A DNA stretch of 64,000 nt from Arthrobacter alpinus (GTDB lineage: Bacteria > Actinomycetota > Actinomycetes > Actinomycetales > Micrococcaceae): positions 3,658,001-3,722,000 of the forward strand of contig NZ_CP012677.1 of the NCBI RefSeq assembly GCF_001294625.1, read 5' to 3'. A model generated the notes under the pieces. The model did not search any database. It was given only the letters and a program-made list of their open reading frames with translations, and was not told the DNA's origin. A program made the position numbers and the translations under genes. Below, piece by piece: positions 9,976-41,547 of the stretch; positions within the stretch are counted from its first letter, which is position 1; each line of letters opens with the position of its first letter.

Positions 9976-10040
9976 CTTTGGTTTCCCAATAATATGTTGG
10001 GGGATCTGGTGACAAAAGCATTGTCAGTTCACCAAGGCAA

Positions 10041-12539: not shown

Positions 12540-12608
12540 TCTTTTCCCATCATCGCCCTTGAGCGCACGCAGCCCGGGGGTTCGCGCTTTGAGAACAAGG
12601 AGACGAAC

Positions 12609-12947
12609 ATGAGTGAGAACAACATGGACAAGGGCACCGCGGCAGCGGCAGAGCCCGTGAGTAAGGCGAAGGACTTCGCGGGGGACGCTGCGGAAAAAGC
12701 CAAGGATTTCGCGGGGGACGCTGCGGAAAAAGCGAAGGATTTCGCGGGGGACGCTGCGGAAAAAGCGAAGGATTTCGCGGGGGACGCTGCGGAAAAAGCG
12801 AAGGACTTCGCGGGGGACGCCGGCGAGAACATCAAGGAATTCAGCGAGGACGCAGTGGAGAATGTCAAGGAATTCACCGAGGAAGCAGTGGAAAATATGA
12901 AGGGGTTTGGCGCCAAGGTCGCCAGCCTTTTCAAGCACGAGAAATAG
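12609..12947 (+). CDS. LEA-like protein of 11-residue repeats
   Basis: A 112-residue protein that is mostly seven consecutive 11-residue units of the form AKDFAGDAAEK, later drifting to IKEFSEDAVEN and VKEFTEEAVEN, with a short C-terminal KVASLFKHEK. The 11-mer period and the Ala/Lys/Glu/Asp composition resemble group 3 late-embryogenesis-abundant and apolipoprotein-like amphipathic helices, which associate with membranes or protect against desiccation. AAGGAG lies just upstream of the ATG at 12609. It is the last gene before a terminator and 69 bp behind the AmaP-like gene, so it probably belongs to the same stress operon. Function is inferred from repeat type only. Confidence 0.75.
   Translation: MSENNMDKGTAAAAEPVSKAKDFAGDAAEKAKDFAGDAAEKAKDFAGDAAEKAKDFAGDAAEKAKDFAGDAGENIKEFSEDAVENVKEFTEEAVENMKGFGAKVASLFKHEK
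12666..12896 (+). repeat. Tandem 33-bp coding repeats
   Basis: Seven 33-bp units run in frame from 12666. Units 1-4 are nearly identical, differing by single silent changes (GACTTC/GATTTC, AAAGCC/AAAGCG). Units 5-7 diverge progressively. Near-identity of the first units suggests recent expansion by slippage or unequal crossing-over. Confidence 0.9.
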
Positions 12948-23480: not shown

Positions 23481-23972
23481 ATGCGTCCACATAGTTCATT
23501 GACAGCCGAGCAGCGGCTAGCTGCCGTCGATCTGTTTGAGGAAGGGTTTGGGTATCGCGCGGTATCCTCAAAGCTGGGAGTCAGCGCGTCGGCTATTTGC
23601 AAGTTGGAGAGTCGGTTCAAGATCTGGGGTAGAGCAGCATTGGAAATCAAACCAACTAGGCAGGTGTATTCCTTTGAGTTCAAGCTGGCGATTGTTCGCC
23701 AATATCTTGACGGTGAGGGGACGCGGCAGGACCTCGCCCGGATGCATCAACTCAGTTCTCTAGACCTCTTGCGAGCATGGATCCGCGCCTATCGGGACTT
23801 TGGTGAGGAGGGCCTGCGCTCCAAGGCCAAGGGCCGGCCCAAGTCTGTGACTAGGACCCCCTCGGTCGAAGTCAGTGAGTTGGAGAAGCTACGCCGCGAG
23901 AACGAGCGTCTGGCGGCTGAGAACGCCTACCTAAAAAAAGTACGGGCCTTGAGGAACCAACCACGGCGCTGA
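23481..23972 (+). CDS. IS3-family transposase OrfA
   Basis: A 163-residue DNA-binding part of the transposase. It has two helix-turn-helix regions (VDLFEEGFGYRAVSSKLGVS and VRQYLDGEGTRQDLARMHQ) and a C-terminal leucine-zipper-like helix (SELEKLRRENERLAAENAYL). Near its end CTA AAA AAA G contains the heptamer A AAA AAA (23933-23939), where ribosomes can slip -1 into the orfB frame, giving a fused AYLKKSTGLEEP junction. Without slippage it stops at 23972 as a short regulator-like product. Confidence 0.92.
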   Translation: MRPHSSLTAEQRLAAVDLFEEGFGYRAVSSKLGVSASAICKLESRFKIWGRAALEIKPTRQVYSFEFKLAIVRQYLDGEGTRQDLARMHQLSSLDLLRAWIRAYRDFGEEGLRSKAKGRPKSVTRTPSVEVSELEKLRRENERLAAENAYLKKVRALRNQPRR

Positions 23973-23983
23973 AAGTCAGCGCC

Positions 23984-24823
23984 GTGATTGCCCTCAAGGC
24001 ATCCCATTCCCTGCCCCTTTTGCTCCAAGCAGCGGGGTTGCCTCGTTCCACGTTCTTCCACCGCCAAGCGGCCCTGCAGACCCCTGACCGGCACGCTGAG
24101 CTTCGAGCCCAGATCCACGAGGCTTTCATCCAAGCTAAGGGCCGCTACGGCCACCGGCGCATCCACGCGGTCCTGAAGCGCCAAGGCTGGCAGGTCGCAC
24201 GCAAGACCGTGCTGAAGCTGATGCGTGAGGAGAACCTGGTCTGTAAGGTCCGTACCCGAAGCAAATATTCCTCTTACAAGGGCAAGGTCGGCAAGATCGC
24301 CGACAACCTTTTGAAACGAGAATTCGATACCGATGCGCCAAACACCAAATGGGTGACCGACGTGACCGAGTTCAAGATCGCCGAGCGCAAGGTCTACCTC
24401 TCACCGGTGCTAGATCTGTTCGACCGCTCGATCGTTTCCTACTCGGTTTCCGAGTCGCCGACCGTTGCCTTCACCACCGAATCACTCATCGAAGCGATCG
24501 GCACCCTGGCGCCGGGCGAGGCCCCGATGGTGCATTCAGACCAAGGATTTCAGTATCAACACTCCAGCTGGCAGAAGCTCCTCAGCGACGCCAAGATGGC
24601 CCAATCCATGTCGCGCAAGGGCAACTGTTTAGATAACTCGGTGATGGAAAACTTCTTCGGACACCTGAAGGAAGAGATGTTCCATCGCCAAAAATTCACC
24701 GGCATCGACGGGTTCCGCACGGAGCTGGACGACTATATCCACTGGTACAACAATGACCGCATCTCGTTAACGCTGCAGTGCCTGAGTCCGATGGAATATC
24801 GGGCTCAGGCACTGGCCGCGTAG
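23984..24823 (+). CDS. IS3-family transposase OrfB (integrase catalytic domain)
   Basis: A 279-residue rve-type integrase domain. The DDE triad is Asp126 in WVTDVTEF, Asp186 in VHSDQGFQY and Glu222 in DNSVMENFFG, with the standard 35-residue D-E spacing. An N-terminal HTH_21-like region (YGHRRIHAVLKRQGW) is present. The in-frame sequence continues upstream of this ATG to the slippery site at 23933, so the active protein is most probably the OrfAB fusion 23481-24823 made by -1 frameshifting. No internal stop is seen. Confidence 0.92.
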   Translation: MIALKASHSLPLLLQAAGLPRSTFFHRQAALQTPDRHAELRAQIHEAFIQAKGRYGHRRIHAVLKRQGWQVARKTVLKLMREENLVCKVRTRSKYSSYKGKVGKIADNLLKREFDTDAPNTKWVTDVTEFKIAERKVYLSPVLDLFDRSIVSYSVSESPTVAFTTESLIEAIGTLAPGEAPMVHSDQGFQYQHSSWQKLLSDAKMAQSMSRKGNCLDNSVMENFFGHLKEEMFHRQKFTGIDGFRTELDDYIHWYNNDRISLTLQCLSPMEYRAQALAA

Positions 24824-26742: not shown

Positions 26743-27564
26743 CTAACGCCACCATGTGTCCAGCAGGGACACGGGGACGGTGCGCTTGTGCCGGGTAGCC
26801 AGGAATCGGCGTTCAATGGCGGCCGCGGCGGCCTCGGGGATGGTCTTTCCCTCAAGGTAGTCGTCGATTTGCTCGTAGCTGATGCCGAGTTCTTCCTCGT
26901 CGGTGCGGCCGGGCTTGCCATCGAGCAGGTCGGCGGTAGGCACCTTGTTGTAGAGCTGTTCGGGGGCGCCCAACTCTTTCAACAGGGCACGGTTTTGGCG
27001 CTTGTTGAGGGTGAACAGCGGCAGGATGTCGGCTCCGCCGTCGCCAAATTTCGTGAAGAACCCGGTCACTGACTCTGCGGCGTGGTCCGTGCCGATGACC
27101 AGAAGGTTCTCGTGGCCGGCAAGCGCGTACTGGGCGATCATGCGGCTGCGCGCCTTGATGTTGCCCTTGTTGAAATCGCTGACGTCCGCCATGGCCGTCT
27201 TGGCGAATTCTGCTTCAAAACCATCCACAGCAGGTGCGATGTTGAAAGTCTGCGCCGACTTGGCCCCGATGAAGTCCATGGCAGCTTGGGCGTCGCCCTC
27301 ATCGTGCTGGACACCGTAGGGAAGGCGGACGGCGATGAAGTTGGCCTCAACGCCGTCGTTCGCTAGATCCTCAACGGCAAGCTGGGCCATCCGGCCGGCC
27401 AGGGTGGAATCAAGCCCGCCGCTGATGCCCAGCACAAAGCCCTTGGTCCGGGTTGCTTTCAGGTAGTCCTTCATGAAAGTCACGCGGCGGGTGATTTCCG
27501 CAGCGGGGTCAATGTGGGCCTGAACGCCAAGTTCGGCAATAATCTGTACCTGTAATTCGCGCAT
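26743..27564 (-). CDS. nadE: NH3-dependent NAD+ synthetase
   Basis: A 273-residue enzyme converting deamido-NAD to NAD with ammonia and ATP. The P-loop of N-type ATP pyrophosphatases is [28 protein letters not shown] and the ammonia/ATP-site [27 protein letters not shown] are characteristic of the family. There is no N-terminal glutaminase domain, so it is the ammonia-dependent form. Start and length are typical. The upstream side is a 94-bp repeat, beyond which the catabolic island begins. Confidence 0.95.
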
Positions 27565-27584: not shown

Positions 27585-27678
27585 GACGGCGACCCGTGAG
27601 CTATGGCGGCTTAGCGACCCGCCAAGCCGCCATAGCTCACGGGTCGCCAGTGCATCATCAGGCGTGAGGGTGTTCCGC
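27585..27678. repeat. 94-bp repeat, left copy, with 25-bp hairpin
   Basis: Identical over 94 bp to 35926-36019, in the same orientation. It contains perfect 25-bp arms (27588-27612 and 27624-27648, starting GGCGACCCGTGAGC) around an 11-base loop, then a unique 30-bp tail ending GTGTTCCGC. It lies between the nadE start and the regulator stop. The hairpin may terminate the regulator transcript. Confidence 0.92.
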
Positions 27679-27682
27679 TAAG

Positions 27683-28483
27683 CTACCGGTCTGGAATTTC
27701 CGGGTGAGCGCGTCCCCAGATAACGGAAGATTCCTCGACGGACTGTTCTACGATCTTGGCCATCGCCATATGCGCTCCATCGCTGTCGCGATGCTGGATT
27801 GCCGTCGCCACGTCTACGTGGAACTGGAGCGCCTCAAGATTGGGGGTGTGAGGCATCAGGCCATGCTCCGTTCGTCCCACCAATATTTCCGTGACCAAGG
27901 AGTTGAGTTGCGCGAACATGGCGTTTCCTGACGCCTTGAGGATAAGTGAATGAAACTGGATGTCCATTTCCAGAAAGTCCTCGACGCGGCCGCTTTGGGC
28001 GGCGGCCCACATCTGGGCCGACAAACTGACCAAGTCACTTGCCATACCCAGGGTTGCCTGCCGTGCCGCAAGCCTGGCAGCATGTGGCTCGATTGCCACG
28101 CGCAGTTCACTGAGGCTTTTTAACTGCTCCAAGCGTTGATCCGAAGCTAGGCGCCATCGAATCACGCACGGATCAAACAGATTCCACTCGCTTTCCGGCT
28201 GAACAACGGTTCCCAACCGGCGTTTTGAGGCCACTAGCCCCATGGACGAGAGCACCCTTATGACTTCGCGAACCACTGAACGGGACACCCCGTAGCGTTC
28301 TTCGAGGTCGGCCATGTGGATCAAGCTCTGGGGTGGGAACTCCTTCGTCACCACGGCAAGTCCAAGCTTTTCCACCAGCGCAGAGTGGAGGTCCTCGCCG
28401 CTCGTGGACGGTAACGGCCCCGAACGACGACTGGAGGTCGTGGGATGGGTTGAAAGTGCCTGGCCCACCAAGGGAGTCGTCAT
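27683..28483 (-). CDS. GntR/FadR-family regulator of the sugar-acid island
   Basis: A 266-residue regulator. The winged helix-turn-helix is at about residues 35-100 (MADLEERYGVSRSVVREVIRVLSSMGLV), followed by an all-helical FCD ligand domain (LSELRVAIEPHAARLAARQA, MDIQFHSLILKASGN, FHVDVATAIQHRDSDGA) with the Asp/His residues that usually bind a metal and a carboxylate ligand. It resembles DgoR-type galactonate regulators. It is divergent from the importer and catabolic genes, and a TAGT-N3-ACTA site at 28546-28556 is a likely operator. Confidence 0.88.
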   Translation of the reverse strand: MTTPLVGQALSTHPTTSSRRSGPLPSTSGEDLHSALVEKLGLAVVTKEFPPQSLIHMADLEERYGVSRSVVREVIRVLSSMGLVASKRRLGTVVQPESEWNLFDPCVIRWRLASDQRLEQLKSLSELRVAIEPHAARLAARQATLGMASDLVSLSAQMWAAAQSGRVEDFLEMDIQFHSLILKASGNAMFAQLNSLVTEILVGRTEHGLMPHTPNLEALQFHVDVATAIQHRDSDGAHMAMAKIVEQSVEESSVIWGRAHPEIPDR

Positions 28484-28545
28484 GAGGAAAGTGTATCTGT
28501 CGTATCTATCAAGATGTGACCTTGATTATGTAGACCTTATGTGGC

Positions 28546-28556
28546 TAGTATCACTA
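28546..28556. promoter_or_regulatory. Candidate FadR-type operator
   Basis: TAGTATCACTA is a perfect inverted repeat with a 3-base spacer and fits the FadR-subfamily consensus TNGTN(0-3)ACNA. It lies in the divergent promoter region between the regulator and the binding-protein gene. Confidence 0.55.
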
Positions 28557-28631
28557 ATAAGACAGATTTATTCCCGAACTTCCAGGGATGTCTATTTTTT
28601 CTCTTCCACTTCAATCGCAAAGGAAGTCGTA

Positions 28632-29918
28632 ATGAAGCGACGCTCTCTACTTCAGCTGATGGCTGTTGCATCCCTCGTTCCGTTCGGTGTTACTGCCTGT
28701 GGTTCCGGCAGTGATGCTGCTGCATCCGGAACTGTCCGCGTCACGCTGGCCAACCATGTGTGGACCGAAGGTATCAAGGCGGCCATTCCAGAGTTCGAGA
28801 AGGAAAGCGGGCTCAAGGTTGAGCTGACACAGCTTGGTGAAGACCAGCTCTCCGACCAGTACAACGTCAAGCTCAACGCTGGCAGCGACGAAATCGACGT
28901 CATGATGTACCGTCCCCTGCAGGAGGGGAAATCATTTGCGCAGAACACCTACCTGGCAGATCTGACGGGGCATGTGACGTCCAATGCAAGCTGGGGCTGG
29001 GACGACTACCAGGCCGGGCCTAAGACCGCCAGCACTTTTGATGGGAAAGTGGTTGGGGTTCCGATCATCACTGAGCGCGAAGTGCTCTACTACCGCAAGG
29101 ACCTGCTTGAAGCAGCCGGCATCCAAGTGCCCAAGACCATGGAGGAGCTGGAATCTGCAGCAAAGGCCATCTCCGAAGCCAATGACGGCGTTGCCGGGTT
29201 TGTGGCACGAACGAACAAGTCGGCTGCCGTGACCCAGTTCTCAAGCTTCTTGTACAGCTTCGGTGGTGACTTCATGGATTCCTCCGGAAAGTCCGCAGTT
29301 TCATCCGACGCTGCCAAGAAAGCCTATGCCTACTATGGTGGTCTGATCCACAACTACGGTCCGGAAAATGTCAGTACGGACATGAGCTGGCCCGAAGCGA
29401 TGGCCATCTTCACTCAGGGAAACGCGGCGTTCTACACCGAAGCGGATTCCCTGTACAAGAACGCAACAGATCCCAGCAAGTCCAAGGTCTCAGACAAGGT
29501 TGGGTTTGCACCCATTCCTGCCGGACCCGCAGGATCCAAACCGTACAACATTCCGTCGTGGGGCCTGGCAATCAACTCGGCGTCCGCGAATCAGGAGAAT
29601 GCGTGGAAGTTCATTGAATGGGCAACCACCAAGGAGCGGACACTCGCCGCCCAGAAGGCAGGAGTTCCCGGTCCACGCGCATCGGTTTGGGCTGATCCTG
29701 ATGGAACATCGACCTACCCGAAAGACCTCGCGGCAGCGATTGCAGTAAGTGCGAAGAACGGTGTTGGGCATGACAGACCCCTCGTCGTAACGGTGGGCAA
29801 GGCCCGTGAAATCGTGGGTGGCCCGATCGTCACAGCCATCACAGGTGGCGATTCCGGCGCAGCAGCAGATGAAGCGAATACGGCCTTCGGGAAGTTCCTG
29901 GAATCCGACGGCAAATAA
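28632..29918 (+). CDS. Sugar/sugar-acid ABC transporter binding lipoprotein
   Basis: A family 1 solute-binding lipoprotein of 428 residues. The signal peptide ends with lipobox GVTAC (Cys23). The mature domain begins TVRVTLANHVWTEGIKAAIP and contains VGVPIITEREVLYYRKDLLE and IPSWGLAINSASANQENAWKFIEWAT-type segments common to the family. The ATG at 28632 has AAGGAAG upstream; a reading from 28314 lies inside the divergent regulator and is rejected. As the first gene of the island operon it should bind the imported sugar acid or its glycoside. Confidence 0.85.
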   Translation: MKRRSLLQLMAVASLVPFGVTACGSGSDAAASGTVRVTLANHVWTEGIKAAIPEFEKESGLKVELTQLGEDQLSDQYNVKLNAGSDEIDVMMYRPLQEGKSFAQNTYLADLTGHVTSNASWGWDDYQAGPKTASTFDGKVVGVPIITEREVLYYRKDLLEAAGIQVPKTMEELESAAKAISEANDGVAGFVARTNKSAAVTQFSSFLYSFGGDFMDSSGKSAVSSDAAKKAYAYYGGLIHNYGPENVSTDMSWPEAMAIFTQGNAAFYTEADSLYKNATDPSKSKVSDKVGFAPIPAGPAGSKPYNIPSWGLAINSASANQENAWKFIEWATTKERTLAAQKAGVPGPRASVWADPDGTSTYPKDLAAAIAVSAKNGVGHDRPLVVTVGKAREIVGGPIVTAITGGDSGAAADEANTAFGKFLESDGK

Positions 29919-29924
29919 CTTCAA

Positions 29925-29956
29925 GGGGGCGGTAGCACTTGACTGCTGCCGCCCCC
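29925..29956 (+). terminator. Intra-operon stem-loop after the binding-protein gene
   Basis: GGGGGCGGTAGCA (29925-29937) pairs with TGCTGCCGCCCCC (29944-29956), one G-U pair, six-base loop, no U-run. This is the same position and design as the hairpin after the first sugar-binding gene at 14495. Confidence 0.7.
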
Positions 29957-30028
29957 GTACCCCCTGAACTTGGCGCGCAGAAAAACAACCGTGCGCCAAC
30001 CTTCCGCACCCAACTCCTTAGGTGAACC

Positions 30029-30964
30029 ATGTCTGTTTCCACAAGCCCCAAGATCGTTGTTAGGGGAACAAAGAAGCCACAATCTTTCTCTGACTGGGCC
30101 AACAAGCATCGAAAATGGTTGTTTGCCGCCCCCGCAATGATCTTTGTCGGACTTCTAATAATCTTCCCCCTCGTGTGGACTATCTACCTGAGCTTGACCG
30201 ACTCACACGGCTCGGTGCGCGCGCCGTCCCAGTTCATTGGTTTTGCCAACTATATGGAGGTACTTTCGGACACTGAACGCTTCTGGCCTGCAGCCGGACG
30301 CACCGCCTACTTCACCATCACTGCCTTGGCGGTGGAGGTGGTTCTTGGAATGATCATCGCGCTACTGCTTTGGCGGCCCTTTCGCGGAGAAAAGTGGGTG
30401 CGCGTCGCGATCCTCTTGCCACTGGTAGCGACGCCAGTGGCTGTCGGCATGATGTGGCGCCTCATCTTTGACCCGAATATGGGATTTGCCAACCAAATGC
30501 TTGGGTGGATTGGCATTCCGGCCCAGCCCTGGCTCTCCGGCCAGTCAACGGCGCTTCCCACCACAATTTTTATGGACATCTGGCAGTGGACGCCAATGGT
30601 TGTGCTGATCATGCTCGCCGGGCTGACCTCACTCTCGGACGAGCCGGACGAGGCTGCGCGAATGGATGGCGCCAACGCTTGGCAGCGATTCTTCTTTGTA
30701 ACTCTGCCACTGATGATGCCGACGGTGATTGTTGCAATACTCCTGCGAAGCATCGACGCGCTGAAGACGTTTGACATTCTTTACGCCACGAAGGGCAAGG
30801 GCGGCGGTTCGTTTCACGAAGTCGAAACATTGAACATCTATGCCTATGGGCTCAGCTTTGACTACAACGAGTACGGGTTGTCCTCTGCGGTGCTCATGAT
30901 CTTCTTTTTCATCATTATTGGCGTCATGTGGATACTGACTCGACGCAAGAAAGGCATCAAGTAG
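30029..30964 (+). CDS. Sugar ABC transporter permease (island, first subunit)
   Basis: A 311-residue MalF-type permease with six transmembrane segments starting at WLFAAPAMIFVGLLIIFPLV. The EAA coupling loop is EAARMDGANAWQRFFFVTLPLMMP. It abuts the next permease gene with no gap (stop 30962-30964, next ATG 30965). By eye the DNA is richer in A/T than nadE or pyrE. No ATPase gene is present in the island. Confidence 0.9.
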   Translation: MSVSTSPKIVVRGTKKPQSFSDWANKHRKWLFAAPAMIFVGLLIIFPLVWTIYLSLTDSHGSVRAPSQFIGFANYMEVLSDTERFWPAAGRTAYFTITALAVEVVLGMIIALLLWRPFRGEKWVRVAILLPLVATPVAVGMMWRLIFDPNMGFANQMLGWIGIPAQPWLSGQSTALPTTIFMDIWQWTPMVVLIMLAGLTSLSDEPDEAARMDGANAWQRFFFVTLPLMMPTVIVAILLRSIDALKTFDILYATKGKGGGSFHEVETLNIYAYGLSFDYNEYGLSSAVLMIFFFIIIGVMWILTRRKKGIK

Positions 30965-31855
30965 ATGTCCAACAAACTCAGCACCCTTAACCATGAACCA
31001 CCGATGACCAGACGGAATCCTGCCCTGGCAAAGCGCAAACCGTTCGGCGTCCGCATTTACAAGAACTTTCGTTTTGCTGCTTTGGCGCTCGTCGTGCTCT
31101 GTCTGCTCGCCCCGCTCGCCTGGCTAGTCGCGTCTTCTTTGAAGACAAACGTGGATATCTACGACGCGTCCAAGACGTTCTTCTTTGTGCCGACGTTGGA
31201 AAACTATGCCAATGTCTTGACGCGAAACAACTACTTCGTCTTCATCTTTAACAGTTTTTGGGTTGCGTCCGCATCCACCGTCTTGTCGTTGATTTTGGGT
31301 GTTCCTGCCGCGTATGCCATGAGTCGCTTCACCATGCACCGTTCGGCGCTGGTTGTTCTCATGGCGAGGGTTATTCCGGGAATCTCGTTGTTGGTCCCTT
31401 GGTACTACGTGTTCTCAAATATGAAGATGGTTGGTGGGTTCGGTGTCTTGATCCTCAGCCACATGTTCGTAGCGCTGCCGTTGATCGTTTACATCATGAT
31501 GAGCTATTTTGACTCGATGCCTCTGGAGCTTGAAGAATCCGCCCAGGTTGACGGGTTAACGCCAATCGGCGCATTTCAAAGGATAACCCTGCCGTTGTCG
31601 GTGGGAGGTATGGCCACTGCCGGGATCTTGTCGTTCATTTTTTCGTGGAACAACTTCATGTTTGCATTGGTTCTTTCAGGATCCAAGACCAAAACGCTTC
31701 CAGTGGCCATCTTTGACTTCGTCTCCTACGCCAGCATCGACTGGGGCGGGCTCATGGCAGCGGCTACCGTCGTGACAATACCCATCATGATCATTGCGTT
31801 GTTCACACAAAAGTACATTGTCTCCGGCATGACCGCCGGGGCTACCAAAGGATAG
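30965..31855 (+). CDS. Sugar ABC transporter permease (island, second subunit)
   Basis: A 296-residue MalG-type permease. It has six transmembrane segments, the EAA loop EESAQVDGLTPIGAFQRITLPLS and the family C-terminus SGMTAGATKG. It forms the importer with the preceding permease and the lipoprotein, and needs a housekeeping ATPase supplied from elsewhere. Nine bases separate it from the dehydratase gene. Confidence 0.9.
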   Translation: MSNKLSTLNHEPPMTRRNPALAKRKPFGVRIYKNFRFAALALVVLCLLAPLAWLVASSLKTNVDIYDASKTFFFVPTLENYANVLTRNNYFVFIFNSFWVASASTVLSLILGVPAAYAMSRFTMHRSALVVLMARVIPGISLLVPWYYVFSNMKMVGGFGVLILSHMFVALPLIVYIMMSYFDSMPLELEESAQVDGLTPIGAFQRITLPLSVGGMATAGILSFIFSWNNFMFALVLSGSKTKTLPVAIFDFVSYASIDWGGLMAAATVVTIPIMIIALFTQKYIVSGMTAGATKG

Positions 31856-31864
31856 GCGCCGTTC

Positions 31865-33013
31865 GTGACCCACATAGTTAAGATTGAAACTTTCCTGGTG
31901 CCGCCCCGCTGGCTGTTCGTCCGCATTGAGACGGCCAGCGGAATCGTCGGCTGGGGTGAAGCGACCTGTGAAGGTCGGAGTGAAACTGTCCGAACGGCTG
32001 TGGACCAGCTTTCCGAGATTCTGATGGGCCAGGATGCGCTCAGGATCGAAGATCACTGGCAGGTCATGACGAAAGGATCATTTTACAGGGGTGGGCCAAT
32101 ACTCTCTAGTGCCGTTTCGGGACTTGACCAGGCTTTGTGGGACATAGCTGGCAAACACTTCGAAACCCCGGTCCACCAGCTTCTAGGAGGCCCCGTGAGG
32201 GACCGAATTAGGGCCTATGGGTGGGTGGGTGGTGACGAACCCAACGAGGTTGCAGAGTCCATCCAAGCACAGATGGATGTTGGGCTGACAGCCGTGAAGA
32301 TGAACGCCAGTGGCAGGATGAGCCCGCTGGGTTCAGTTGCGGAAATCGATGGCGTTATCAGGCGCGTGGCGGCGGCCCGTGAGGTACTGGGTGACCACCG
32401 CGACGTTGCGGTTGATTTCCATGGGAGGTTCTCCTTGGCGAATGCCCGAAAAGTGGCGCCGCTGCTGGAACCCTACCGCCCGTTCTTCATCGAAGAGCCG
32501 GTTGTTCCCGAGAACACTCACCTATTGCAGCAGTTCACCTCCTCGACCACCATTCCGGTCGCGACGGGCGAGAGACTTTACAGCCGGCAGGAGTTTTTGC
32601 CCGCGTTGCAGGCCGGAATTGCTGTGGCGCAACCTGATCTGTCCCACGCGGGAGGCATCACGGAAGTGCGCAAGATCGCCGCACTTGCCGAAGTTTATGA
32701 TGTTCAGCTTGCGCCCCACTGCCCGCTTGGACCGATTGCTTTGGCGGCCTGCCTGCAAGTTGGATTTGCAACCTCGAATTACCTCATCCAGGAGCAAAGC
32801 ATTGGCATCCATTACAACAAGGGGGCAGAAGTGCTCGACTACGTGGTGGACACGAGCCCATTAAAGTTTGTTGATGGAAATTTCGAACGGCTGACCGGGC
32901 CAGGGCTCGGCATTGAGGTCGATGAAGCCGCAGTCCGGGAAGCAGACAAGCGCGGGCATGCTTGGCGCGGCCCCGTCTGGCGGCATTCCGACGGATCATT
33001 TGCGGAATGGTGA
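31865..33013 (+). CDS. dgoD: D-galactonate dehydratase
   Basis: A 382-residue enolase-superfamily enzyme (mandelate racemase subgroup) that dehydrates D-galactonate to 2-keto-3-deoxygalactonate. The metal ligands are Asp184 (VAVDFHGR), Glu210 (FFIEEPV) and Glu236 (PVATGER). His186 and His285 (LAPHCPLGP) are the expected catalytic bases, at almost the same positions as in E. coli DgoD. ALWDIAGK and QLLGGPVRDRIRAY complete the family pattern. The start is GTG. It overlaps the aldolase gene by a few bases. Confidence 0.92.
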   Translation: MTHIVKIETFLVPPRWLFVRIETASGIVGWGEATCEGRSETVRTAVDQLSEILMGQDALRIEDHWQVMTKGSFYRGGPILSSAVSGLDQALWDIAGKHFETPVHQLLGGPVRDRIRAYGWVGGDEPNEVAESIQAQMDVGLTAVKMNASGRMSPLGSVAEIDGVIRRVAAAREVLGDHRDVAVDFHGRFSLANARKVAPLLEPYRPFFIEEPVVPENTHLLQQFTSSTTIPVATGERLYSRQEFLPALQAGIAVAQPDLSHAGGITEVRKIAALAEVYDVQLAPHCPLGPIALAACLQVGFATSNYLIQEQSIGIHYNKGAEVLDYVVDTSPLKFVDGNFERLTGPGLGIEVDEAAVREADKRGHAWRGPVWRHSDGSFAEW

Positions 33014-33681
33014 GTAAAACAATGCAGACACCCGAAGAATTCGTTATTGGAGTTCAAGAGTCCAAATTGATCGCAATCGTTCGCGGCACCAGTGGAAAAT
33101 TTGCGGCAGCGGCAGCGTTGGCGCTCATGGAAGAAGGGTTCCGTTATGTTGAGGTCGCTCTGACAACTCCGGATGCTACCTCTGCGATCGCAGAAATCCG
33201 AGCCAATGCGCCGCCAGGTTCACTGGTCGGGGCCGGAACAGTCCTGACGGTGGGAAATGTCAAAGACGTCATTGCGGCCGGGGCCCAGTTTATCGTTACC
33301 CCCGCCATTTGTGAATCCGTTCGTGAAGGTGCCCGCCAAGACATACCCGTGGTGGCGGGGGCCCTAACTCCAAGCGAAGTCCACGCAGGCATGAGCCAAG
33401 GCGCCACCTTGATCAAGCTTTTCCCGGCATCATTGGGTGGCCCCAACTACCTCAAGGCGCTCCGTGACCCGTTCCCCACCGTGCCATTCATCGCCGTGGG
33501 CGGCGTCGGATTGACGGAAGCACAATCATATTGGAACCTCGGAGCCCTCGCCGTCGGACCCGGAGGGCCACTGGTCGGCAACGCAGCCTCCTCAGGCGGC
33601 GACCTCGTCCCGCTGCGGCAACGAGCCCGTGACTACCTTGCCCTGGCGAGACGATTCCAGGAAGCGAGCGCACGCCCGTGA
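33007..33681 (+). CDS. KDPG/KDPGal-type aldolase
   Basis: A class I aldolase of about 220 residues that cleaves 2-keto-3-deoxy-6-phospho sugar acids to pyruvate and glyceraldehyde 3-phosphate. It carries the family strands IAIVRG, YVEVALTTPDA with catalytic Glu, VGAGTVLT, and the Schiff-base lysine in TLIKLFPA. The start is ambiguous: ATG 33007, GTG 33010 (overlapping the dgoD stop) and ATG 33022 are all in frame. The 3' end overlaps the kinase by GTGA. Whether it prefers KDPG or KDPGal cannot be told from sequence. Confidence 0.88.
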   Translation: MVSKTMQTPEEFVIGVQESKLIAIVRGTSGKFAAAAALALMEEGFRYVEVALTTPDATSAIAEIRANAPPGSLVGAGTVLTVGNVKDVIAAGAQFIVTPAICESVREGARQDIPVVAGALTPSEVHAGMSQGATLIKLFPASLGGPNYLKALRDPFPTVPFIAVGGVGLTEAQSYWNLGALAVGPGGPLVGNAASSGGDLVPLRQRARDYLALARRFQEASARP

Positions 33682-34646
33682 CAACGGTAGATCTATTGAC
33701 TTTTGGCGAAGCCATGGTCTCTCTTCGCAGTAACGGTCCGTTGGCACAAGGCGGGACATTGACAACGCACATGGCAGGCAGTGAGGCCAATGTTGCCATT
33801 GCCCTGTCGCGATTGGGACACACTGCAAGATGGGTAGGGCGGGTTGGTGAGGATCCCCATGGGGAATTTATTCAACGCCAGCTCCGGGCGGAATCCGTTG
33901 ACGAGTGGGTCACTGTGGATCCTGATCGATCCACTGGCGTCATGTTTCTTGAAAAAAGAACAGCCGACATCAGCAGAGCGCTCTACTACCGGCAAGGGTC
34001 GGCGGGTTCGGAGGTGGGCTTCATCGATGTGGGACCGGCCTTGGAGTCATCGGCAAGGCTACTGCACCTGACCGGAATCACCCCTGCCCTGTCCCCCCGC
34101 TCCCGAGAAGCCTTTGAGCGAGCTGCTGCTGGCGCAGAAGCTCATGGCATGGTGCTCTCCTTGGACGTGAATTACCGAAACAAGCTGTGGTCCCGCAGGG
34201 AAGCCACACAGGTGCTGTCGGCGGCGGCCCGTCATGCGAAAATCGTGGTCGCCTCTGACGACGAGTTATGCCTGCTCTCCTCTCGCCCGACCGGGCCCGA
34301 ACATCCCGCAAACATCCCAGCCGTTGCTGCGGAACTGTTGGCGCTTGGTGTGGAAGAGGTGGTGGTGAAGCTTGGTTCTGACGGCGCCGAGGTCTACACA
34401 GCGTCAGGCAAGTTCCGAGTGGATGCAGTACCAGTCAATGCTGTCGACACTGTTGGTGCCGGGGATGCTTTCACGGCCGGGTATCTCTCAGCATTCCTTG
34501 ATGGGGTGCCGGTCGTGGAGAGGCTCCGTCGCGGCAACCTCATGGGCGGCTTCGCCGTTAGCACCCTTGGTGACTGGGAGGGGCTGCCGAAGAGGGCAGA
34601 ACTGGACCTACTCAGCGCTCAAGCAATTGGAAGTACCCAACGTTAA
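33678..34646 (+). CDS. PfkB-family 2-keto-3-deoxy sugar acid kinase
   Basis: A 322-residue ribokinase/PfkB-fold kinase. It has the N-terminal signature GSEANVAIALSRLG with WVGRVGEDPHGEF, and the C-terminal signature DTVGAGDAFTAGYLS with the catalytic Asp. The sequence TFGEAMVSLR at the start is typical of KdgK-type 2-keto-3-deoxygluconate kinases. In the classical De Ley-Doudoroff galactonate route the kinase (DgoK) belongs to a different fold, so this PfkB enzyme probably serves either or both keto-deoxy acids formed by the two dehydratases. It overlaps the aldolase stop. Confidence 0.85.
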   Translation: MTTVDLLTFGEAMVSLRSNGPLAQGGTLTTHMAGSEANVAIALSRLGHTARWVGRVGEDPHGEFIQRQLRAESVDEWVTVDPDRSTGVMFLEKRTADISRALYYRQGSAGSEVGFIDVGPALESSARLLHLTGITPALSPRSREAFERAAAGAEAHGMVLSLDVNYRNKLWSRREATQVLSAAARHAKIVVASDDELCLLSSRPTGPEHPANIPAVAAELLALGVEEVVVKLGSDGAEVYTASGKFRVDAVPVNAVDTVGAGDAFTAGYLSAFLDGVPVVERLRRGNLMGGFAVSTLGDWEGLPKRAELDLLSAQAIGSTQR

Positions 34647-34696
34647 CCTGATGTGAGCATGCGCTCCATCTATTCCCGTCATGGAAGGAATTCCTC

Positions 34697-35926
34697 GTGA
34701 AAATCATTTCTGCTGAAGTATTTGTGACCAGCCCGAGCCGTAACTTCGTGACGTTGAAGGTCACTACCGATGAAGGTGTTGTCGGTATTGGCGATGCCAC
34801 CCTGAATGGCCGCGAGCTGGCCGTTGCCGCGTATTTGAAGGAACACGTGGCCCAGCTGCTCATCGGCCGGGACCCGCACCGCATCGAGGACACGTGGCAG
34901 TTCATTTACCGCAGCTCCTACTGGCGCCGCGGCCCGGTCACCATGGCCGCCATCGCCGCCGTGGACATGGCATTGTGGGACATCAAGGGCAAGATCGCGG
35001 GCCTGCCCGTCTACCAGCTGCTCGGTGGCGCCTCGCGTAACGGCCTGCGCGCTTATGGCCATGCCTCCGGTGCCGACATCCCCCAGCTCTTTGACTCGGT
35101 CCGCGAACACTTGGAGCTTGGTTATAAGTCCATCCGCATCCAGACTGCGATCCCCGGTATCAAGGCCGTCTACGGGGTGGCCGCCCAGGCTCAGGCCTCG
35201 GGGGAACGTTACGACTACGAACCCGCCGGCCGCGGGAACTACCCGCAGGAAGAGGATTGGGACACCCGCGCGTATCTGCGCCACCTGCCCACCGTCTTCG
35301 AGGCGGTCCGGAACGAGTTCGGCCCGGAAATTCCACTGCTGCACGATGGCCACCACCGCATGACCCCGATCCAAGCCGCCAAACTGGGCAAGTCTTTGGA
35401 GCCCTACGACCTGTACTGGCTTGAAGACTGCACCCCGGCGGAAAACCAGGAGGGACTGCGTCTGGTCCGCCAGCACACCACCACCCCGTTGGCGATTGGT
35501 GAGGTGTTCAACACGGTCTTTGATTTCCAGACCCTGATCAAGGAACAACTCATCGACTATGTTCGGGCCGCCTCGACCCACTTCGGTGGCATCTCGGCGC
35601 TAAAGAAGGTCATGGACTATGCGGCCCAGTACCAGATCAAGTCCGGTTTCCACGGGCCCACCGATATTTCACCGATCGGCTTCGCCGCGCAGTTGCATGT
35701 GGGTTTGGCCATCCACAACTACGGAATTCAGGAGTACATGCAGCACTCGGATGCCACGAACGAGGTCTTCGAGCAGTCCATGACGTTCAAGGACGGCTAC
35801 CTGCACCCCGGCGACGCCCCCGGCATCGGGGTGGAATTCAACGAGGAAGCCGCCGCGGCCTACCCGTATCAGCAGGCCTACCTGCCCTACAACCGCCTGG
35901 TCGACGGAACAGTCCACGACTGGTAG
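34697..35926 (+). CDS. Mannonate dehydratase family protein (ManD/RspA)
   Basis: A 409-residue enolase-superfamily enzyme of the ManD subgroup. Metal ligands are Asp217 (LLHDGHHRM), Glu243 ([12 protein letters not shown]) and Glu269 (AIGEVFN); His319 in [11 protein letters not shown] is in the catalytic position. The long loop [21 protein letters not shown] is specific to ManD/RspA proteins. Characterised members dehydrate D-mannonate, D-gluconate or are catalytically weak, so the product would be 2-keto-3-deoxygluconate. AAGGAATTC precedes the ATG. Its stop codon is the first base set of the right 94-bp repeat. Confidence 0.88.
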
Positions 35927-36019
35927 ACGGCGACCCGTGAGCTATGGCGGCTTAGCGACCCGCCAAGCCGCCATAGCTCACGGGTCGCCAGTGCATCATC
36001 AGGCGTGAGGGTGTTCCGC
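35926..36019. repeat. 94-bp repeat, right copy, with 25-bp hairpin
   Basis: Identical to 27585-27678 and in the same orientation. The hairpin arms are 35929-35953 and 35965-35989. It starts at the last base of the dehydratase stop codon and ends 22 bp before the pyrE start. It could terminate the island transcript. Confidence 0.92.
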
Positions 36020-36040
36020 AGCGCCACTAGAATGGGTGTC

Positions 36041-36607
36041 ATGACTCAGACTCTCGCTGCCGACCGCGCCCGCCTGCTCGAACTCGTCAAGGAATTGGCC
36101 GTTGTCCATGGCAAAGTGATCCTCTCCTCCGGTAAGGAAGCCGACTACTACATCGATCTACGCCGCATCACGCTCCACCACGAGGCTTCCCGCCTTGCCG
36201 GTCGCGTCATGTTGGCCATGTTGGACGACGCCGGCATCGAGTTTGAGACGGCTGGCGGGCTGACCATGGGTGCAGATCCTGTGGGTACGGCGCTCATGCA
36301 CGCAGCCGGCGACGCCGGCCGCACCATCGACGCCTTCGTGGTCCGCAAGGCCCAGAAGTCCTATGGTATGGGCCGCCAGGTGGAGGGCCCCAGCGTTGAC
36401 GGGCGCAACGTCGTCGTGCTCGAAGACACCTCCACAACAGGCGGGAGTGCGCTGGCAGCGGTGGAAGGCGTGCGCAAGGCCGGGGGAAACATTAAGGCCG
36501 TTGCGGTGATCGTGGACCGCGACACCGGCGCCAAGGAGCGCATTGAAGCCGAAGCCGGGGTCCCGTACCTGTTCGTGTTCGGCAAGGACGAGCTCGGCCT
36601 GAACTAG
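36041..36607 (+). CDS. pyrE: Orotate phosphoribosyltransferase
   Basis: A 188-residue enzyme joining orotate to PRPP in pyrimidine synthesis. The PRPP-binding motif is VVVLEDTSTTGGSALAAVE, and the dimer-loop lysine region is VRKAQKSYGMGRQVEG. It begins MTQTLAADRARLLELVKEL at 36041; two upstream in-frame starts add residues with no conservation. It lies just outside the right repeat of the island and 11 bp upstream of the thymidine kinase gene. Confidence 0.93.
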   Translation: MTQTLAADRARLLELVKELAVVHGKVILSSGKEADYYIDLRRITLHHEASRLAGRVMLAMLDDAGIEFETAGGLTMGADPVGTALMHAAGDAGRTIDAFVVRKAQKSYGMGRQVEGPSVDGRNVVVLEDTSTTGGSALAAVEGVRKAGGNIKAVAVIVDRDTGAKERIEAEAGVPYLFVFGKDELGLN

Positions 36608-41478: not shown

Positions 41479-41547
41479 AAATGACACCGATCCCGCTTTC
41501 TGACACCGAGATATCGGCATCAGAAAGCGGGATCGGTGTCATTTTTT
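41479..41547. terminator. Bidirectional long hairpin behind DUF3151
   Basis: The arms 41479-41503 and 41520-41543 form a perfect stem of about 24 bp (AATGACACCGATCCCGCTTT...), followed on the plus strand by TTTTTT. The loop contains a second small palindrome (CCGAGATATCGG). It separates convergent genes. Confidence 0.85.

Follow-up and report, generated by a model that had tools for sequence, protein, structure and literature searches.

The window analyzed in this study is a stretch of 64,000 nucleotides from the genome of Arthrobacter alpinus (contig NZ_CP012677.1, positions 3,658,001 to 3,722,000; all positions below are those of the window). It contains an operon for sugar-acid catabolism that is located between the core genes nadE and pyrE and bordered by two copies of a 94-bp direct repeat. 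The left core flank, nadE (26743 to 27564, minus strand), encodes NAD+ synthase (NF001979, 395 bits for a cut-off of 250), and the right core flank, pyrE (36041 to 36607, plus strand), encodes orotate phosphoribosyltransferase (TIGR00336, 119 bits for a cut-off of 107). The gntR gene (27683 to 28483, minus strand), coding for a regulator of the GntR/FCD family (PF00392, PF07729), is divergent from the seven other genes of the island, which are on the plus strand. These genes encode a solute-binding protein of a sugar ATP-binding cassette (ABC) importer (28617 to 29918, start approximate; PF01547), two ABC permeases (30029 to 30964 and 30965 to 31855; PF00528 for both), the galactonate dehydratase DgoD (31865 to 33013; NF010624, 578 bits for a cut-off of 311), an aldolase of the 2-keto-3-deoxy-6-phosphogluconate/galactonate (KDPG/KDPGal) type (33010 to 33681, start approximate; PF01081, with a TIGR01182 score of 149.6 bits, slightly below the 156-bit cut-off), a PfkB-family kinase that is probably a 2-keto-3-deoxygluconate kinase (33678 to 34646; PF00294, NF040938 under cut-off), and the D-mannonate dehydratase ManD (34697 to 35926; NF043051, 689 bits for a cut-off of 550).

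The expected chemistry is dehydration of galactonate by DgoD and of mannonate by ManD, followed by phosphorylation and aldol cleavage into pyruvate and a triose phosphate. An earlier account of the window, made from the nucleotides without database searches and referred to below as the sequence-only reading, had described a regulator, an importer and four enzymes of one pathway. The inventory of genes was correct, but the assignment to one pathway is approximate since ManD belongs to the hexuronate branch, and the importer is devoid of an ATPase: family searches identified no ATPase subunit among the eight operon proteins. The importer (28617 to 31855) may borrow a shared ATPase encoded elsewhere. 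No recombinase, integrase, excisionase or other mobility gene was detected among the same eight proteins, and no tRNA gene was found near the island. A pair of open reading frames (ORFs) at 23481 to 24823, which we take to resemble an IS3-type transposase, lies outside nadE, past the neighboring gene, presumably for an acyl-CoA synthetase-like protein.

The two copies of the repeat (27585 to 27678 and 35926 to 36019) match at 94 of 94 bases in direct orientation, with a start-to-start distance of 8341 bp, as had been claimed by the sequence-only reading. Identity ends sharply, since neither flank of either copy extends the match. Each copy consists of a hairpin and an asymmetric tail of about 30 bp. 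This organization had been correctly recognized, although the hairpin was thought to have 25 bp: the arms are 29 nt long, 97% complementary, and separated by a 3-nt loop. The hairpins of the left (27588 to 27648) and right (35929 to 35989) copies have the same sequence, with a predicted RNA folding energy of −67.6 kcal/mol and z-scores against shuffled sequences of −9.5 and −9.0 for the two strands. When up to 3 mismatches were allowed, the 29-nt arm had four matches in the window, versus none in 100 shuffles, thereby excluding a chance origin of the arms. The left copy lies between the stop codon of gntR and the start codon of nadE and is located 4 bp past the gntR stop codon. The final base of the manD stop codon is part of the right copy, whose hairpin follows manD directly and whose tail runs on into the pyrE leader. 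A TAGAAT motif, the likely −10 box of pyrE, is present on the plus strand at 36028 to 36033, 8 bp beyond the right repeat. Thus, the tail adjoins a −10 box at pyrE, not beside gntR.

Two other long hairpins were present in the window, one with 31-nt arms (41479 to 41544, 94% complementary) and one with 38-nt arms (294 to 371, 89% complementary); the sequence of both is unlike that of the 94-bp unit. A 109-nt repeat at 12597 to 12903 occurs in seven overlapping copies at 33-bp spacing and corresponds to an array of 33-bp units.

Searching the complete genome (4,046,453 bases) revealed the entire 94-bp unit at only two places, the hairpin alone at two additional places (85 to 86% identity) and, beyond these, partial matches alone (E ≥ 0.18). 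Full copies at unrelated genes, which the sequence-only reading had proposed to look for, do not occur. The tail had no second good match in the genome, the best one covering 23 bp at 87% identity (E 0.6). The hairpin had no match at the Rfam gathering thresholds. Comparisons were extended to 23 genomes of the genus, one per species, including the window genome (G000). Hairpins of the same family were detected at 27 places in seven of these genomes, four of them in G000 (E ≤ 0.01). The alignment of the family comprised 16 copies, the two window copies being entered as one and three short fetched copies being excluded. Standard pairs filled 92.1% of the pair cells of a stem of 26 aligned pairs. 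Two-sided changes were found in 27 cells (shuffle mean of 10.2, reached by 0 of 500 shuffles) and at 9 pairs (mean of 6.0, reached by 7 of 500), together with 19 further pair types (mean of 15.4, reached by 27 of 500), for a structure derived from the same sequences and with kinship among the copies uncontrolled. Gene context was analyzed at 19 loci, including the two window copies; 7 further places and a divergent copy in the nadE-pyrE spacer of genome G012, described below, were left out. Besides the window pair, 8 copies were located between convergent genes, 9 between tandem genes and none between divergent genes, based on heuristic gene calls. The stem is not followed by a T-run. These features suggest that the hairpin is a gene-end element able to act both ways and a candidate terminator. 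We infer that such a symmetric hairpin would end each of the outward-facing transcripts of the operon.

nadE and pyrE were divergent and less than 13 kb apart in all 23 genomes of the genus. The operon occupied the interval in eight of them, including G000, with a constant gene order. The spacer was free of the operon and only 62 to 483 bp long in 13 genomes, the longest spacers being those of G014 and G021 (482 and 483 bp). The remaining two genomes, G004 and G011, contained different genes. Among the eight carriers, G008 lacked a recognizable aldolase and kinase, and manD was located inside the interval in G000, G018 and G019 only. The cargo of the interval differed in G005, G011 and G004. 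The right part of the G005 interval, beside pyrE (L059, 11339 to 16715), codes for a sensor kinase, a response regulator and an NMT1-type ABC importer, and an NMT1-type protein is encoded on the pyrE side of the interval in G011 (L060, 14836 to 16767). The pyrE-side flanks of G008, G013 and G022 (L061, L062 and L063) read alike by eye. A TAGAAT or TACAAT motif resembling a −10 box was found by script near the pyrE start codon in 22 genomes; in the 23rd (G009), TAGAAT was found further up, the start codon having been set too late. A TANNNT box, which is a loose pattern, was present upstream of nadE in all 23 genomes.

At the level of the family, dgoD was detected (E ≤ 1e-200) in 71 of 395 genomes, eight of which belong to this genus. 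The survey of the nadE-pyrE gap in other genera covered the 63 remaining dgoD-positive genomes. The gap was measurable, on one contig, in 60 of them and ranged from 104 to 34,770 bp (13 gaps of up to 600 bp, 11 of 0.6 to 3 kb, 16 of 3 to 15 kb, and 20 above 15 kb). dgoD was inside the gap in all eight genomes of genus g7 and in no other measurable genome (0 of 52). For genus g10, 61 genomes were searched for pyrE and 30 loci were read, with nadE within 1.5 kb in six. The diversity of gap length and cargo indicates that variation at this interval extends well past the operon. nadE-pyrE is an integrase-free variable interval in the family Micrococcaceae.

Genome G012 is the sister of G000 in the rpoB tree (93.5% nucleotide identity; G001 and G020 were represented by shorter rpoB frames than the other genomes), and trees of nadE and pyrE also pair the two genomes (support of 1.0 and 0.9). 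The conservation of this pairing led us to reject co-transfer of long flanks with the operon from a distant donor. G012 lacks the operon and contains, directly upstream of pyrE, a single diverged copy of the repeat segment. Its spacer aligns across the hairpin, tail and pyrE leader with the bare site predicted for G000, although G012 is another species. The predicted product of recombination between the two copies in G000 thus aligns with a natural junction, in agreement with the sequence-only reading, which had anticipated that such an event would leave the nadE-repeat-pyrE junction intact. That reading had also envisaged empty sites of this type in relatives; operon-free sites are indeed common, but the hairpin-bearing junction was found in G012 only and its tail is diverged (17 of 33 positions identical to G000, or 34 of 54 when the leader is added). 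G012 is alone among the 13 operon-free sites in having the hairpin in its spacer, and location between divergent genes is odd for the family (none of the 17 other copies analyzed, out of 24 other places in the genus), which suggests that the hairpin of G012 may be a scar. Since this single copy lies upstream of pyrE, the 94-bp repeats are best read as a duplicated native junction, composed of the hairpin and the pyrE leader, and probably not as attachment (att) sites. The data suggest that the native junction became duplicated as the present arrangement arose. A GC-rich unit starting GGCCGAGGGGCCCC is present in tandem upstream of nadE and is shared by the spacers of G022 (L063), G006 (L050) and G012 (L065).

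Among the carriers, similarity between the left and right flanks was detected by blastn in G000 and G010 only. G010 independently contains, to the left of gntR and thus on the nadE side, a decayed duplicate (83% identity over 101 bp) of the 3′ end of its own kinase gene and of the sequence that follows it. This degenerate repeat contains a 27-bp exact core and differs from the 94-bp unit. G010 is a second and older example of right-end sequence located next to nadE. No exact 11-bp word was common to the two 500-bp flanks in six of the seven carriers other than G000, indicating that repeats do not govern the presence or absence of the operon across the genus.

The base composition of the operon is atypical, not extreme. 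The two permease genes have GC contents of 51.9 and 54.6%, versus 61.4 to 64.9% in four flanking genes, confirming that the importer genes are A/T-rich, as had been judged by eye. At third codon positions, the mean GC content (GC3) of six operon genes, excluding manD and gntR, was 65.0, versus 79.8 for the four flanking genes, an offset of −14.8. The offsets in the seven other carriers were −6.2, −5.2, −4.3, −4.0, −3.1, −2.7 and +0.4, the last value being that of G008 and based on four genes.

The manD gene differs from the rest of the operon in this respect. A second manD is located at positions 2,314,349 to 2,315,575 of the G000 genome (L218) and is 99.35% identical to the island copy at the nucleotide level (1220 of 1228 bases). 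The eight differences are all synonymous third-codon changes, and the two proteins are identical. Near-identity is confined to the coding region and ends at the start and stop codons. The neighbors of the second copy are presumably uxaC- and uxuB-like genes. On visual inspection, the sequence immediately preceding the start codon of the island manD is more like the G018 island manD than the second host copy. The pair is most simply explained by gene conversion or by recent, precise copying of the coding region, which would account for the host-like GC3 (80.7) seen in manD alone. We therefore rejected manD as an age marker of the operon, and the pair calls for caution against dating operons by their most host-like gene. 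The manD tree places the island genes of G018 and G019 among the chromosomal manD genes of the genus, apart from the operon manD of genus g10; no second manD was found in G018 and G019 at E ≤ 1e-120. This distribution suggests that manD may have been recruited or homogenized more than once. The closest manD genes of named relatives are those of Arthrobacter, Specibacter and Paenarthrobacter species. Adjacency of manD and pyrE recurs in the relative Arthrobacter sp. M4 (L146): from position 10001 of that locus, manD is located about 60 bp upstream of pyrE, and other operon genes were unrecognized within 10 kb on each side.

The eight carriers split into four separate groups on the midpoint-rooted rpoB tree. 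A tree of four concatenated operon proteins (25 loci; the fetched locus L254, in which dgoD alone was recognized, was unused) grouped them into one clade (support of 1.0), with G000 as the first branch. A single protein clade in the genus therefore fits old residence and repeated loss better than many invasions. Loss from an old residence, or exchange at the site within the genus, would account for the distribution better than four new insertions. The operon is an old and widespread cluster, monophyletic in the genus in the protein tree, rather than just an island of foreign origin. A nucleotide tree of the eight carriers alone joined G000 to G018 and G019 (support of 1.000), but this tree may be distorted as these three genomes all have a low GC3. 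The DNA identity between G000 and the other carriers was 75 to 77% for four concatenated genes and 58 to 68% for gntR and the aldolase and kinase genes. Relocation of the operon in the 15 genomes of the genus that lack it at this site was rejected, since seven have a dgoD-like gene at 52 to 56% identity and eight have none (E ≤ 1e-120). A plasmid was rejected as a known source, the best dgoD of PLSDB being 69.4% identical, in a database that may omit records very near the window genome. Two Arthrobacter plasmid records of PLSDB at 93 to 94% match manD rather than dgoD.

These observations are best accommodated by refilling of an emptied site, an account to which we give slightly less than an even chance. 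A galactonate/mannonate operon would have been resident at nadE-pyrE in part of the genus and lost many times. In an ancestor of G000, loss of the operon would have left the divergent genes nadE and pyrE separated by the 3′-end hairpin of the operon and the leader of pyrE, as in G012. A fragment composed of operon, hairpin and leader would later have entered from a relative through recombination with the surviving junction, either by a single crossover after circularization of the fragment or, for a linear fragment, by homologous recombination at one end combined with illegitimate joining at the opposite end. This would yield the order nadE, junction, operon, junction, pyrE, in which the two 94-bp copies are identical. 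The likely −10 boxes of nadE and pyrE and the native sequence upstream of both genes would be retained, and the repeats would now permit loss of 8341 bp in one step by RecA-type recombination. We infer the loss preceding regain and the recombination route; regain is favored by the low GC3 of the G000 operon and by the occurrence in G012 of a scar-like hairpin flanked by divergent genes. The account also draws on the restriction of the whole unit to two genomic copies, the operon-free sites, the single junction of G012, the decayed copy in G010, and the lack of a recombinase among the operon proteins and of a tRNA gene nearby. The sequence-only reading, according to which the island might be gained or lost as a unit, is supported in this respect by the 13 operon-free sites and the atypical composition, and its alternative of a dispersed terminator element is half right, as it holds for the hairpin part of the repeat. 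As a more doubtful extension, hairpin-plus-leader junctions might act as recurrent docking sites, the scar of a lost operon providing homology for re-entry of an operon of the same kind without an integrase. It would be equally tentative to regard G000 (recent, 94 of 94 bases) and G010 (old, 83%) as two stages of one cycle of loss and regain.

Several observations weigh against regain. Plain vertical retention, with no regain, would also give the G000 operon its place as first branch of the protein tree. The protein and nucleotide trees conflict over the origin of the G000 copy. These two points, and a comparison based on one genome per species, weaken the case for regain. A donor was not found, the nearest DgoD protein being 92% identical. 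The compositional contrast is milder when the operon is compared to all ORFs of the window outside the island (mean GC3 of 74.5, standard deviation of 5.1, n = 54), and 10 of these 54 heuristically called ORFs likewise have a GC3 below 70. Under vertical retention, the low GC3 could result from slow local drift. Given the weak similarity of the tail, homology of the G012 junction rests mainly on the hairpin, its position and the adjoining leader. Finally, insertion of a circle, one-sided insertion and tandem duplication yield the same end product.

Tandem duplication is the best of the alternatives, albeit an unlikely one. The operon with its downstream junction would have been doubled in place and the first unit deleted up to the hairpin, in the absence of any gene transfer. 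In line with this scenario, G010 retains an old piece of the operon 3′ end beside nadE, and the protein tree can be reconciled with vertical descent. However, this scenario requires two events, the second stopping at the start of the hairpin, whereas refilling through a left-behind junction generates the arrangement in one step. It also leaves unexplained the large GC3 offset of G000 alone and the hairpin of G012 in the absence of any operon.

Somewhat less probable is an old repeat pair predating the split between G000 and G012, with deletion of the operon in G012 and maintenance of the identity of the G000 copies by gene conversion. The single-copy junction of G012 is of the kind that such a deletion would leave, and the 1.2-kb near-identity of the two manD genes suggests that conversion occurs in the G000 genome. 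The junction is nonetheless strongly diverged between G000 and G012, with the tail retaining half of its positions, yet the two G000 copies are identical. Conversion would need to be long-lasting, and two direct 94-bp copies would be expected to undergo deletion more frequently than conversion.

Independent insertion of two copies of a repeated terminator, irrelevant to gain or loss, had been raised as an alternative by the sequence-only reading and is very improbable. The hairpin half of the unit does belong to a dispersed, many-copy family at gene ends, but the whole unit exists in just two copies. The tail lacks a second good genomic match and runs on into the leader of pyrE, and independent hairpin insertions would therefore not yield 94 identical bases. 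Slightly less credible still, and disfavored, is an integrative element targeting nadE-pyrE with the repeats as attachment sites, since the resemblance of the direct repeats to attL and attR and the existence of operon-free sites are outweighed by a tail that reads as an ordinary pyrE leader, by the lack of an integrase, excisionase or mobility gene among the eight operon proteins and of a tRNA nearby, and by the six of seven other carriers whose flanks have no 11-bp word in common.

Refilling through the surviving junction, if correct, would leave in the sequence a record of how operons for nutrient use may be gained and lost at a single site without mobile-element machinery, an open question for numerous variable spots devoid of integrases. 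The direct repeats predict a measurable rate of clean loss leaving a G012-like junction with both core neighbors intact. Among the open-licence PMC papers listed in literature searches, none dealt with the nadE-pyrE locus of Arthrobacter; the single paper obtained on islands, direct repeats and hotspots in this genus concerns, judging from its title, naphthalene/carbaryl operons, and no paper was obtained on D-galactonate and mannonate dehydratase in Arthrobacter or on loss and regain. Transfer hotspots between core genes, many of them devoid of integrases, are described in passages of PMC5635113, where double homologous recombination at the flanks is proposed. Like nadE-pyrE, the hotspots described there have fixed core-gene borders, very different cargo and empty versions. 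Unlike them, the flanks of G000 follow those of its sister G012, with no long-flank import seen, and the cargo is bordered by a duplicated 94-bp junction; the comparisons of PMC5635113, in the same passages, are within species, whereas ours are between species. For the type VI secretion system (T6SS) modules of Vibrio cholerae, excerpts of PMC5361080 propose one-sided homologous insertion leaving old 3′ remnants, described as rare. The T6SS arrays resemble the present locus in that a new module lies beside an older 3′ remnant, homology at one end being proposed there to be sufficient. The remnants presented in these excerpts are whole immunity genes of other types, whereas here they are a non-coding hairpin junction in G000 and a kinase 3′ end in G010, and the incoming module would be of the same kind as the lost one. 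Circularized linear DNA integrates by single crossover in Escherichia coli, according to the portion of PMC3240628 concerned with this process, and would likewise leave direct repeats of the homologous stretch around the insert without an integrase; that result was obtained in the laboratory, whereas the present case is deduced from a natural chromosome. Extragenic palindromes near gene ends are known, as indicated in part of PMC12306157. Repetitive extragenic palindromes and terminator hairpins, as presented there, are similar to the hairpin studied here in being dispersed, intergenic, near gene ends and conserved in pairing. The present hairpin differs from them by its long stem of 26 aligned pairs, its four places in G000, the lack of a T-run, and its status as only half of a 94-bp unit. 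The type of site is thus known, and a duplicated junction, combined with a single-copy junction in the sister genome and with an older analogue in G010, represents a modest variant of it.

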